In this document: in pieces, positions 17,273 to 22,269 of the stretch
Position numbering within the stretch: the stretch's first letter is position 1
Layout of the letters: each line of letters begins with the position of its first letter
Virus record (IMG/VR): IMGVR_UViG_3300025684_000063
Location: 1-25,341 of that record
Reading direction: 5' to 3' (one strand)
Length of the DNA stretch: 25,341 bases
Source: a virus
Notes under the pieces: model-generated
Databases searched by the model: none
Told to the model about the DNA's origin: nothing
The model's input: the letters and a program-made list of their open reading frames with translations, nothing else
Made by a program: the position numbers and the translations under genes

Positions 17273-17781
17273 TTTTTTACGCCAGTTACCTCGTTAAGAA
17301 TCTCGATGCGGTCTAGCTGCTCGATTTCCTCTTTGGAGCGCATATCGCCACGAATAAACTCTATTCGGTAGTGTGGTATGTCTTCGGTTTTTTCGGCTTG
17401 CGCCAGCATAGCGGCGTGGCGTTTGGTGATTTGATTTTTGCGACAGCGTTTGACGGCTTCCTCAGTGCTAAGCGCCTCCAGGATGTCTCCAGCAAATTCG
17501 TGGATTTCCCCAGATAGCCCAGCAAACTCGATAAAGTCAGCCGAATACATTGCGTCTTGAATATGACGCTTTCCGAGATAGGTGGCACATTCGTCGATTA
17601 CTTTCCAAAGCTTTGCGGTTTCAATGACACGGCCTTTGAGCTCGTCCCATTCCAAAACCGTTAAACTGTCACAGTAATCTGGAGCGTTACTGCTAGTGAT
17701 TCCAGCCAGCTCGCAAAGTGCTTCGCGTTCGTAGCCAACCGTGGATAAATCGTCGTATCTTTTGCCACCTAATGCGCTCAT
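17269..17781 (-). CDS. Probable terminase small subunit
   Basis: A 170-residue, mostly helical, charged protein immediately upstream of the large terminase and translationally coupled to it by a GTGA overlap. The N-terminus (RYDDLSTVGYEREALCELAGITSSNAPDY) could be a helix-turn-helix-like DNA recognition part, followed by long helices (AKLWKVIDECATYLGKRHIQ, ALSTEEAVKRCRKNQITKRHAAMLAQ) suited to ring oligomerisation. No diagnostic family motif is recognised, so the assignment rests on position and composition. It would bind the packaging start site, probably in the nearby 18.2-18.8 kb control region. Confidence 0.6.
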   Translation of the reverse strand: MSALGGKRYDDLSTVGYEREALCELAGITSSNAPDYCDSLTVLEWDELKGRVIETAKLWKVIDECATYLGKRHIQDAMYSADFIEFAGLSGEIHEFAGDILEALSTEEAVKRCRKNQITKRHAAMLAQAEKTEDIPHYRIEFIRGDMRSKEEIEQLDRIEILNEVTGVKK

Positions 17782-18490: not shown

Positions 18491-18519
18491 ATTGTACTTA
18501 AAAATTTAATCTATTGAAA
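18491..18519 (-). promoter_or_regulatory. Candidate late-operon promoter (leftward)
   Basis: On the minus strand a TTTCAA box (18514-18519) and a TACAAT box (18491-18496) are separated by exactly 17 nt. The -10 is close to the sigma70 consensus and the -35 is weak, which would suit a promoter that needs activation. Transcription would start near 18484 and run through the 18-kb structural operon. It is the only promoter-like sequence I find upstream of that operon. Confidence 0.5.
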
Positions 18520-18549: not shown

Positions 18550-18555
18550 AAAGGC

Positions 18556-18688
18556 AAGTCACACAGACTTATCACTCACCCAAAAACCTCGTGAGTGAAA
18601 CCAGATTTCAAGTGGTAGACCGCCAATCTATCGCGCCCAAATTGCCGGAAGTCCGATAAAGCAGCCTTGTTCCAGGGGCTGCTTTTTT
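18556..18688 (+). ncRNA. Putative structured small RNA or attenuated leader upstream of vapE
   Basis: About 130 nt between a consensus-like promoter and a strong intrinsic terminator, with no credible reading frame. It can form a perfect 8-bp hairpin (TCACTCAC 18572-18579 with GTGAGTGA 18591-18598), and ends in a terminator stem. It may be a free small RNA controlling replication or late genes, or a leader whose terminator is read through under some condition to express vapE. No known RNA family is recognised. Confidence 0.6.
18658..18688 (+). terminator. Intrinsic terminator of the vapE-upstream RNA
   Basis: AAAGCAGCC (18658-18666) pairs with GGCTGCTTT (18677-18685) around a 10-nt loop, followed by a run of six T (18683-18688). 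It lies about 90 nt before the vapE start, so it either ends a separate RNA or attenuates vapE transcription. Confidence 0.85.
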
Positions 18689-18730
18689 CGTTTTAGGATG
18701 GCGCAAAGCCATAAATGATCGTATTATAAA

Positions 18731-18780: not shown

Positions 18781-20772
18781 ATGTCAAAAGATAACGCAAA
18801 CAGCGCCCAAGTTGCGCCTAAAAAAAATGCGTCATGCTTCAACGCATGGAAAGCAAAGAGCGAAACTACATTGTTAGTATTCGTTGATGATAACCGAGCA
18901 TTTCCAAAAAACGCGAAAAAACTACTTCAAGACCAATACCGACTAGCTTGGTATAAAAAAGCAATTGGTAACATTCATATCGACGACAAAGTTGCTAACG
19001 AAATCCTAACCTGGGAACTGGCAACACAAGATAGATTCGAGATGCTGCTCGGATGGGGTAAAGACTGCATTGGCCTACCAAAATACGACCAACATTTTGA
19101 TAGTGATGATAATGAGGAATACAAAACACCTGTTTGTATTGGTCTTTCTGAAATAAGAGATCAATCAAAAAACTGGCTGAACATGAATCAAAAGTCAGTA
19201 AAGATAATTACTAGAACAAAAATAGATACTGATGACCAAAACCTTATCTTAAATGAACTCAAGAAATACCGAGTCCATGAGGCCGTCATAGTTAGAATTA
19301 TCACTGATGAATCAGACCCGAGCCATAACAGGGAAATCCACGTTGCAAATTTCACGACAGAGTTGGAGTTATGCAATAAAGATTTAGCAAGAGAAAAGCA
19401 TGGAATAGAGCTTTCGGATGAGGCCGAGAATATTCTTAGCGGTGAATCTGCTGATAGTGAAAAAAAATCCGTACTAAAAACTTACGAAATGTTTTCACCA
19501 TATGAATTCCCATATCCCAAAATAGACCGATACGGGCAATGTGTTGGCGGAATATCACATATGGTAAACCTCAAATACTTACTTGATAGGTATGGTATAA
19601 CTCTCAAATACAACGTAATTACTAAGAGAGGTGAGGCTCAGTATCCAAATAAACGCCGTATCTTATTGGATAATAAAGAGGGACAGATACTAGAAGAGAT
19701 TGCTGGCTTGTGTTCGATGAATGGATACCCAACAGAACGACTAGTTAACCAAATAAGCGCTATATCTAATGATAACCCGTACAATCCAATTCAAGATTTT
19801 TTCACAAGTAAACCTTGGGATGGTGTTGATAGATTACAAAGAATTATCGATACAGTAGTAGTCGATAATGATTTGAATGAATGGAAATCAGTAGCAATCA
19901 AAAAGTACATGATTGCTGCTGCTTGTGCGGCTATAAATGATGAAGATAAGAGATGGAAATTCAAATGTGTTCTGGTTTTTCAAGGAGCTCAAGGCGTAGG
20001 TAAGAGTCCTTGGATAAGGCTTCTTGTTGGCGATATGGTATCTTATTTCTTAGAGGGATATATTTTAGACCCGTCGAATAGGGATTCATGCATGGCAGCT
20101 CTGGAGACTTGGATAACAGAGTTGGCTGAGTTAGATGCAACAGTAGGTAAATCGGACGTTGCAGCACAAAAAGCGTTTCTAGATGCTGGTAAAGACAAGC
20201 ATCGACTTCCATTTGCTATTCGACATTCAGAGATGATTAGAAGGACTGTATTTTTCGGTACAGTAAACCCAGCTCAGTTTCTTGTGGATAATACTGGTAA
20301 TGATCGATTCTGGTGTCTTCCAGTTCTTGATTTAGATTTGGATGCTGTAGAAAGAATGGATACTCAGCAATTATGGGCTCAGATTTACGAAATTGCAGTT
20401 ATGGAACTAAGTAATGGAGTACCTAGACCTTGGGAGTTAACAGACGATGAACAGGGATTAATGAGTCAAATAAATGAGGCTTCTAGGGTAGTAAGTGCAA
20501 CAGAGGAAAGGTTAATGGATGTATTCGAGCCAGTAAGAGAGAACCCTGTAAAACTCTACGCAACGATAACTAACATCATGGATATGATAGGTTTAAACAC
20601 CAACAATATAAAAGACAAAACAATCGCTGAGAGTTACATCCAAAGAACATTTGGAAGTAAGAAAACCTATTATGGAAAACGAAATTCTTATCCAATCCCA
20701 GTTCCCTTAGGATTTGAAAACAGGCTAGAGCATTTGGTTATTGGCTTAAAAATGAAAGTAAAAAATAAATAA
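18781..20772 (+). CDS. VapE/VirE-family P-loop replication helicase
   Basis: A 663-residue protein. The C-terminal part is a VapE/VirE-family (PF05272-type) ATPase: Walker A GAQGVGKS at 402-409, a Walker B-like WITELAELDA near 443-452, an RLPFAIRHSEMIRRTVFFGTVN sensor region, and the NDRFWCLPV arginine motif. The N-terminal 270 residues are not recognised; they show no primase motifs that I can identify. Proteins of this family act as replicative helicases or initiators in phages, satellites and plasmids, so this is the likely replication protein, working with a host primase. It stands alone on the plus strand, downstream of a terminated leader RNA and directly upstream of iteron-rich DNA. 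Its base composition is more AT-rich than the structural genes, which suggests a different origin. Confidence 0.85.
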   Translation: MSKDNANSAQVAPKKNASCFNAWKAKSETTLLVFVDDNRAFPKNAKKLLQDQYRLAWYKKAIGNIHIDDKVANEILTWELATQDRFEMLLGWGKDCIGLPKYDQHFDSDDNEEYKTPVCIGLSEIRDQSKNWLNMNQKSVKIITRTKIDTDDQNLILNELKKYRVHEAVIVRIITDESDPSHNREIHVANFTTELELCNKDLAREKHGIELSDEAENILSGESADSEKKSVLKTYEMFSPYEFPYPKIDRYGQCVGGISHMVNLKYLLDRYGITLKYNVITKRGEAQYPNKRRILLDNKEGQILEEIAGLCSMNGYPTERLVNQISAISNDNPYNPIQDFFTSKPWDGVDRLQRIIDTVVVDNDLNEWKSVAIKKYMIAAACAAINDEDKRWKFKCVLVFQGAQGVGKSPWIRLLVGDMVSYFLEGYILDPSNRDSCMAALETWITELAELDATVGKSDVAAQKAFLDAGKDKHRLPFAIRHSEMIRRTVFFGTVNPAQFLVDNTGNDRFWCLPVLDLDLDAVERMDTQQLWAQIYEIAVMELSNGVPRPWELTDDEQGLMSQINEASRVVSATEERLMDVFEPVRENPVKLYATITNIMDMIGLNTNNIKDKTIAESYIQRTFGSKKTYYGKRNSYPIPVPLGFENRLEHLVIGLKMKVKNK

Positions 20773-20798
20773 GTGCACTTAAAGTGCATACTAAAGAG

Positions 20799-20830
20799 AA
20801 AGAGTGCAATGATGTTGCACTCTTTTTTTT
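20799..20830 (+). terminator. Intrinsic terminator after vapE
   Basis: An 11-bp perfect stem (AAAGAGTGCAA / TTGCACTCTTT, 20799-20809 and 20815-20825) with a 5-nt loop and a run of T to 20830. The stem itself contains the TGCAC core that is repeated through the following region. A second short inverted repeat of the same core (GTGCACTTAAAGTGCA, 20773-20788) lies just upstream. Confidence 0.92.
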
Positions 20831-20865
20831 ATTTGTTTTTCATGGAGTTAGACTGGATTTGAAAG

Positions 20866-20984
20866 TTTAAGTGCAATAAGTGCACTTTTTCTCTCCATTA
20901 TATGTAAATACTAAAATTTTCAGATTACGTTTTTTTTAGCCATGACTACAATCTTTAAATAAAAGTGCACTTATTGCACTTAAA
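20866..20984. repeat. Perfect 24-bp inverted repeat with 71-bp spacer
   Basis: Bases 20866-20889 are the exact reverse complement of 20961-20984. Each arm contains two TGCAC cores (AAGTGCAATAAGTGCACTT within the left arm). The match ends sharply on both sides. The 71-bp spacer is AT-rich, including a run of eight T near 20931. Such an arrangement could loop DNA between two bound protein dimers, or form a large cruciform. Confidence 0.85.
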
Positions 20985-21016
20985 TGTTTATGTGGTTGAT
21001 TTTTATAGCCTTTTAA

Positions 21017-21071
21017 CTGCACTTTAGCTGCACTTTAGCTGCACTTTAACTGCACTTTGGCTGCACTTAAC
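21017..21071. repeat. Five tandem 11-bp iterons
   Basis: Five direct repeats of 11 bp start at 21017, 21028, 21039, 21050 and 21061. The unit is CTGCACTTTAG, with changes only in the last three or four positions. The 11-bp period places every copy on the same face of the helix, as expected for cooperative binding by an initiator or regulator. Confidence 0.88.
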
Positions 21072-21139
21072 CATCAAGTTATCGTGCAGAAAATGCACAG
21101 ATGTGCTATCATCTATTTGATATATAAGGAGTTTTAAAC

Positions 21140-21667
21140 ATGAATTATGAACAGATACTAGAGTTTATCGTCCGACCAGCTTGTCATGAGCTAGGAGCGC
21201 ACTCAGTGGCCGCTGAGCAGCTTTTGATGGGAACTATGGCCGTAGAGTCAAATGGTGAGTACATCTCTCAAATTGGCAGCGGTATAGCGCGTGGATTGTT
21301 CCAAATGGAGCCAGCCACACATAAAGACATATACGAAAATTATCTTGTGTACCGTGAGAACTACATGGAAGTGGCAACAGGATTATTATCTTGTACTGAG
21401 TTTGACAAGATGCAAGAAACAAACGGCGACTCTGGTGCTATGGATGAGTTCTTTAAATATGTTGCTGACAACTCTCTAAGATGCAACTTGTTATACCAGG
21501 CCGTGATGTGTCGAATTCATTACCTGAGAGAGAAAAGCCCACTACCAGCAGCAAACGACATCGATGCAATGGCAGCGTACTGGAAAGCTCACTACAACAC
21601 ACCAGCGGGAGCTGGTACAGTAGAGAAGTTTATTGATGCCTTTCCTGGTGAACTTTGGGGTATTTGA
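21140..21667 (+). CDS. Lysozyme-like / lytic transglycosylase-fold protein, probable endolysin
   Basis: A 175-residue protein with the lysozyme-superfamily hallmarks of soluble lytic transglycosylases: MAVESNG near residue 34-40, where the Glu would be the catalytic acid, and a following SGIARGLFQMEPATH (about 48-62), the counterpart of the GLMQ..P.T motif. The remainder is helical and ends with a YWKAHYNTPAGAGTVEKFIDAFP stretch. It should cleave peptidoglycan, as endolysin or entry enzyme; with no signal peptide visible it would need a holin. AAGGAG eight bases upstream is an ideal ribosome binding site. It follows the iteron region and precedes a small membrane protein, which fits a lysis cassette. 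Enzyme specificity is not determinable here. Confidence 0.72.
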   Translation: MNYEQILEFIVRPACHELGAHSVAAEQLLMGTMAVESNGEYISQIGSGIARGLFQMEPATHKDIYENYLVYRENYMEVATGLLSCTEFDKMQETNGDSGAMDEFFKYVADNSLRCNLLYQAVMCRIHYLREKSPLPAANDIDAMAAYWKAHYNTPAGAGTVEKFIDAFPGELWGI

Positions 21668-21839: not shown

Positions 21840-22028
21840 AACCCGCTATACTAGTGATGAACTTAAAGGAGCTGCGTAAAACTAAACCTGGGCAGCTAGG
21901 GATTAGACTAGATGGTCATCAAAGGTCTATTCCTGAAAAGCAAAGTCGGCTTGTCGAGCCGTAGCTCTGGCGTTAGCAAGTGACCCGCCAACTAAAAGAC
22001 ACTAGCCCAGCATATTGCTGGGCTTTTT
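21840..22028 (+). ncRNA. Possible structured RNA / 3' region downstream of the lysis genes
   Basis: About 190 nt between the membrane-protein stop and an intrinsic terminator. TATACT at 21847-21852 is a possible -10, with no clear -35. Strong local hairpins are CGGCT/AGCCG (21947-21951 with 21957-21961) and TGGCG/CGCCA (21968-21972 with 21986-21990), then the terminator. A 35-codon frame (21857-21964, MNLKELRKTKPGQLGIRLDG...) exists but has no ribosome binding site. It may be a separate small RNA or only a structured untranslated end. Confidence 0.4.
22004..22028 (+). terminator. Intrinsic terminator ending the rightward lysis transcript
   Basis: AGCCCAGCA (22004-22012) pairs with TGCTGGGCT (22016-22024) around TAT, followed by TTTTT. 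It lies directly at the stop of the leftward accessory operon; on the minus strand the T-run is missing, so it serves mainly the plus strand. Confidence 0.9.
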
Positions 22029-22032
22029 ACTC

Positions 22033-22269
22033 TTAGTAATATTCTAATTCAATCCCCATATTATCAAATGCATCCCTCCAAACTTTAAGTTGGCTTTCGC
22101 AATTTACTTGTAATTTTGCGGTAACCACTTCATCGTTACGCTCAAAAACTAACTCCATTTCTGAAGAGTCGTAACCTACATACTCGAAATATATTTCGAT
22201 TCCATCTAGAGTTAAGATAAATAAATTTTCTACTAAAGGGTGATTTAGTATACCTGCATTATTAATCAT
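22033..22269 (-). CDS. Small hypothetical protein, last gene of accessory operon
   Basis: A 78-residue acidic protein (MINNAGILNHPLVENLFILTLDGIEIYFEYVGYD...). The pattern of alternating strands, DG.EI.FEYVGYD.SEMELVFE, followed by a helix (SQLKVWRDAFDNMGIELEYY), suggests a small alpha/beta fold. AGGATG lies seven to eight bases before the ATG (AGGATGTAAACATG), a leader shared with the 41-residue gene at 23090. A hairpin separates it from the upstream gene. No family is recognised. Confidence 0.65.
   Translation of the reverse strand: MINNAGILNHPLVENLFILTLDGIEIYFEYVGYDSSEMELVFERNDEVVTAKLQVNCESQLKVWRDAFDNMGIELEYY

Follow-up and report, generated by a model that had tools for sequence, protein, structure and literature searches.

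Does the cluster of short repeats directly downstream of the helicase gene rep represent the replication origin of this phage, and would it be recognised by the helicase encoded just upstream? The stretch of DNA analysed here, in the following called the window, is a viral contig of 25,341 bp. In the whole window, 18 exact TGCACTT/AAGTGCA sites were counted, 14 of which are located inside positions 20771–21068 and four elsewhere. The expected number is 4.6 ± 2.1, and none of 100 shuffles of the window reached a count of 18. The preliminary description had reported an iteron array and a perfect 24-bp inverted repeat, and both proved to be real. In 300 Markov sequences, for which the same repeat region was the training set, the maximal number of copies of one 7-mer was 10 (observed: 13), and the longest inverted repeat was 20 bp (observed: 24 bp).

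The cluster starts with the outer left iterons (20771–20788), which consist of a AAGTGCACTT palindrome that overlaps the helicase stop codon (20770–20772) together with AAGTGCA. The intrinsic terminator of rep (20799–20825, plus strand) is situated within the putative origin region. The left arm of the inverted repeat (20866–20889, plus strand) contains AAGTGCA at 20869 and 20878 and TGCACTT at 20881, and the right arm (20961–20984, minus strand) contains AAGTGCA at 20963 and TGCACTT at 20966 and 20975. This is the longest inverted repeat within 400 bp in the entire window. Between the arms is a spacer of 71 bp (20890–20960) with an AT content of 76%, and the starts of the inner opposed iterons, 20878 and 20966, are 88 bp apart. 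The outer right set (21012–21068, plus strand) comprises five direct TGCACTT copies with a spacing of 11 bp, which start at 21018, 21029, 21040, 21051, and 21062. It had been proposed that one core is used in three arrangements, and this was verified for the direct repeats, the inverted repeat, and the AAGTGCACTT palindrome. It holds only approximately for the terminator stem (AAAGAGTGCAA/TTGCACTCTTT), which has the one-mismatch motif TTGCACTC. A second iteron cluster was not found in the window, a nucleotide search with the rep-array region against phage records yielded no match, and a search of Rfam gave nothing above the gathering scores.

The upstream gene, rep (18781–20772, plus strand), encodes a VapE-type helicase/initiator of 663 aa (Pfam VapE-like_dom, 1.3e-39). 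It is the only replication gene recognised in the window, which counts in favor of an origin that is served by a VapE helicase. The best solved relative of Rep is 7pds (SaPI PriRep1), with E values of 6.8e-17 for the sequence and 4.4e-41 for the profile. The title of this entry is "PriRep1 with dsDNA", the molecule is called "Similar to D. nodosus vapE", and we take it to originate from a staphylococcal pathogenicity island. Comparison of the Rep model with the 7pds structure gave a Z score of 25.4 and an rmsd of 4.3 for 375 residues; the pLDDT of the C-terminal half of the AlphaFold model is about 80. Sequence and model place Rep among the SaPI Rep-like AAA+ helicases, which are of the self-loading type. 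Its predicted domains are an orphan N-terminal domain (residues 1–224), the AAA+ helicase (about 245–570), and a C-terminal winged helix (about 573–640). In the AlphaFold model, the secondary structure of the latter is that of a winged helix, and it aligns with the same part of other VapE helicases, including iteron-bearing relatives. Searches in Pfam, PHROG, and phage and plasmid collections yielded no credible match for the N-terminal domain, and its model has a low confidence (pLDDT 43). The leader upstream of rep (18555–18700) has an unusually good predicted RNA fold (z −3.6) and is closed by an intrinsic terminator (18658–18685) that precedes the start of rep by about 95 bp; the leader might be an attenuator or a small RNA that controls rep.

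The regions downstream of other VapE genes were also analysed. The sample comprised 80 viral loci from the VapE helicase alignment and 80 genomic loci from a larger alignment, 77 of which were testable. An array was scored when the best 7-mer had at least five copies within 450 bp downstream of the VapE gene, and stretches from the same loci (2242 viral and 2292 genomic) served as controls. Arrays were present at 19 of 80 viral loci versus 21 of 2242 controls (Fisher 1e-18) and at 13 of 77 genomic loci versus 13 of 2292 controls (Fisher 1e-13), p-values that overstate the strength because the loci are partly related. By the same test, 61 of the 80 viral and 64 of the 77 genomic loci are without an array, and this family must therefore also have other origins or iterons that are more degenerate. 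The 7-mers of the arrays are lineage-specific and include GGTGTCA, ATGACCA, AGGGACA, and CCTACAC, among others. Among the array loci, 26 have a gap of 60–140 bp, and in 23 of these, the iterons that flank the gap are opposite in orientation. The gap of this opposed layout has a length of 75–126 bp (median 89 bp, compared to 88 bp in the window) and is AT-enriched. In the relatives, the opposed iterons have unequal offsets on the two sides, and hence, they do not form a long perfect inverted repeat. The 24-bp inverted repeat of the window is best interpreted as the central part of this layout, namely as two opposed iteron clusters around a putative unwinding site, with the five 11-bp-spaced copies as an extra set on one side.

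A further set of contigs was retrieved via the 11-bp TGCACTT pattern, and a common core is thus inherent in the design of this search. The pattern was found directly 3′ of a P4-type helicase gene (L018), 3′ of the gene for an AAA_25 protein (L016), and, judged by eye, upstream of replication-like genes (L006, L007, L010, and L019), while the arrays of the remaining contigs are located in coding or unrelated DNA. The TGCACTT core alone was rejected as evidence for kinship, because it had been imposed by the search and the contexts are mixed. The most similar array (phage contig L009) has the same offset as the window, 52 bp, between TGCACTT and the first copy of the 11-bp run. This partial contig contains no VapE or DUF5906 gene, and no other sign of kinship was detected.

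Every search returned a single close relative, the record IMGVR_UViG_3300024581_002156 (L004), here called the sister phage. Its DNA shares long alignable blocks of about 94% identity with the window, and the protelomerase is 100% identical in the best tblastn segment. The identity is 90–99% from position 18497 to the rep start and 97–100% from about 21100 over the greater part of the next gene. The two phages diverge between about 18880 and 21080, and the identity is at background level from about 19450 to 21080. The N-terminal domains of the two proteins are 66% identical. The sister helicase in the same slot has matches to D5_N and DUF5906 and weak matches to Pox_D5, and NCBIfam places it weakly in the P4 family. 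The sister iterons are TTAGGGTT/AACCCTAA, and overall they are arranged as in the window, with seven oriented one way 5′ of the gap and six exact copies the opposite way 3′ of it. The gap between the nearest opposed iterons is not AT-rich (53%), and an AT-rich stretch is found one iteron further out. The gap of the putative sister origin also contains an alternating GC-rich, partly palindromic stretch of the GCGCACACATGCGCG type, which is repeated (L004 12366–12399).

On the basis of this one phage pair, helicase and iterons appear to have been exchanged as one cassette. Helicase and iterons differ jointly between the two phages, whereas the downstream gene is constant along with its promoter. 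This indicates that the helicase would recognise the repeats and argues against a role of the repeats in regulation of the downstream gene. The palindrome GTGCA-N5-TGCAC in the promoter of this gene (21084–21098) is retained in the sister phage despite the replacement of the iterons, and therefore, it is probably not part of the origin. It may serve as an operator for some regulator of the lysozyme-like gene. The sister terminator stem, GAGACC/GGTCTC, does not contain an iteron. The earlier suggestion that protein binding at the terminator could affect termination or copy control was dropped for this reason.

The region 20771–21068 is thus very probably (we estimate the probability at roughly 0.87) the replication origin of the phage and the binding site of its own upstream-encoded VapE-type helicase. 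An external iteron origin that operates with a VapE helicase had already been envisaged in the preliminary description, and the comparisons strongly support it, both by the recurring position and layout at VapE loci and by the sister cassette. The best explanation for the region is an origin of the already known SaPI/PICI "rep-ori" type. By analogy, we infer a course of binding, loading, melting, and replication, including the direction of the forks and a role for the 11-bp array. The C-terminal winged helix of Rep would read TGCACTT, and the opposed iteron pairs that flank the 71-bp spacer would lead to the loading of two Rep hexamers face to face. The two hexamers would melt the AT-rich spacer and then unwind the DNA away from it on both sides, followed by proteins of the host replisome. 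The five copies with 11-bp spacing lie nearly on one face of the helix and would probably bring extra Rep to one side, which might lead to a higher occupancy or set the copy number.

The layout had been regarded as unusual, but it is known from PICIs and SaPIs. PICI origins always contain two iteron sets on either side of an AT-rich region, and a PICI rep-ori enabled plasmid replication in E. coli (PMC6092414). SaPI Rep uses its C-terminal domain to recognise the iterons that immediately follow rep (PMC7581432). As in the rep-ori regions of SaPIbov1, SaPI5, and EcCICFT073, the window contains the gene for an AAA+ helicase of the self-loading type with a predicted C-terminal DNA-binding domain, a putative origin directly 3′ of rep, and an AT-rich region between two iteron sets. 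Three differences are apparent. The carrier is not a satellite but a phage that has capsid, tail, terminase, and protelomerase genes of its own, whereas a PICI element lacks a full set of virion genes. The window has five additional iterons, with a spacing of 11 bp and on one side only, and the N-terminal 224 aa of Rep do not contain a recognised primase family.

Two further systems are similar in part. SCCmec Cch2 uses its C-terminal domain to bind short direct repeats that are located 3′ of the Cch2 gene, and its iteron is AAGTG (PMC7581432). The repeats of the window are likewise located 3′ of the helicase gene, and AAGTG is contained in AAGTGCA. However, Cch2 belongs to the D5/Primase_Cterm type, like the helicase of the sister phage, whereas Rep of the window belongs to the VapE type. 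Phage P4 has an ori plus a separate crr. Its alpha protein is a helicase with a winged helix that binds iterons (PMC4234260), and a helicase with a (predicted) winged helix and a putative iteron ori are also present in the window. In contrast, alpha has a Toprim primase, and the window shows one iteron cluster.

The genetic context identifies the source, by its gene content, as a small protelomerase-encoding (telomere) phage. Genes for the terminase, portal, major capsid, tail sheath, and baseplate are encoded on the minus strand, and a protelomerase gene is found at the right end of the window (ResT-TelK_cat, 1.3e-17). An N15-type RepA, an integrase, and a partition gene (ParA/ParB-like) were not recognised in the window. 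The right end of the sister record is formed by the perfect palindrome TTAGTCTCGCGAGACTAA (17529–17546), directly upstream of the protelomerase gene, as would be expected of a telomere resolution site. A telomere resolution palindrome is absent from the window record, which ends about 100 bp before the point that matches TTAGTCTCGCGAGACTAA of the sister; the two records, as metagenomic contigs, are possibly incomplete. The protelomerase gene and the telomere-like terminal palindrome of the sister record are shared with the telomere phages of the N15/PY54 type. These phages have a large RepA, and repA alone is the minimal replicon (PMC10612081); the telomere phage ST2-1pr, for example, has a PriCT-2 Rep of 1208 aa. 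The contrast to N15-type phages that had been drawn earlier was thus confirmed, because no large RepA with an origin inside its gene was recognised in the window; the one recognised replication protein has 663 aa and is of the VapE type, and the iteron cluster is located outside its gene.

Three other explanations of the repeats were considered. The array could be an operator through which the lysozyme-like gene at 21140 is controlled by a transcription factor of phage or host origin, in agreement with the position of the array directly upstream of this gene and with the GTGCA-N5-TGCAC palindrome at the promoter. This is improbable, because the promoter region and the gene are 97–100% identical in the sister phage, yet every TGCACTT iteron has been replaced, and the repeats track the type of helicase and not the downstream gene. 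Distant homologues of the lysozyme-like gene (L192–L194) are adjoined neither by rep nor by a comparable array. The inverted repeat could also form a hairpin or cruciform that is recognised by its shape, as has been proposed for pRN1-like replicons and phage BIP-1 with their stem-loop origins. The single-stranded 24-bp repeat has a strong predicted fold (z −6.7), and a stem-loop downstream of the SF3 replication gene is used by pRN1 (PMC4234260). Nevertheless, recognition by shape has a low probability, because the relatives have opposed iterons at differing offsets without a long perfect inverted repeat, and the perfect repeat of the window consists of two opposed iteron clusters. Centromeres, too, can consist of iteron arrays. 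A partition (centromere-like) or incompatibility site instead of an origin is very improbable, because, although telomere phages usually have ParAB/SopAB (PMC12042878; PMC11054321), such a gene was not recognised in the window, and the layout fits the rep-ori regions of VapE helicases.

The assignment of the repeats to a Rep-dependent origin leads to a wider proposal, for which the odds seem about even. The replicon would be a replaceable cassette, in which either a VapE or a P4/D5 helicase and the matching iteron origin occupy one slot, with a shared N-terminal domain and a constant protelomerase. If this is true, new incompatibility groups would be created, the opposed-iteron layout across VapE phages would be a general site for double-hexamer loading, and the code between winged helix and iteron would become readable. 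The natural swap in near-identical phages would represent a matched pair for helicase–iteron specificity and incompatibility. Compared with the open-access literature that was searched, two points are new: the putative satellite-type origin in a protelomerase phage, where it would replace the N15-like large RepA, and the joint difference of helicase family and iterons between two near-identical phages. In addition, the survey suggests that this layout, which a description from 2018 confined to PICIs, also occurs in other VapE phages.

Three minor observations concern other parts of the two phages. The region 21855–22032 is non-coding, contains a terminator (22004–22024), and is 97–99% conserved in the sister phage; its fold is weakly better than that of shuffles, and it might encode a small RNA. 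A small ORF at the left end (142–429) has a weak match to CRISPR_Cas2 that is below the cut-off (1.1e-4) and is possibly VapD/Cas2-like. The sister phage carries an ORF of 284 aa (L004 13514–14368), in the place of which the window has a small ORF (22033–22269).
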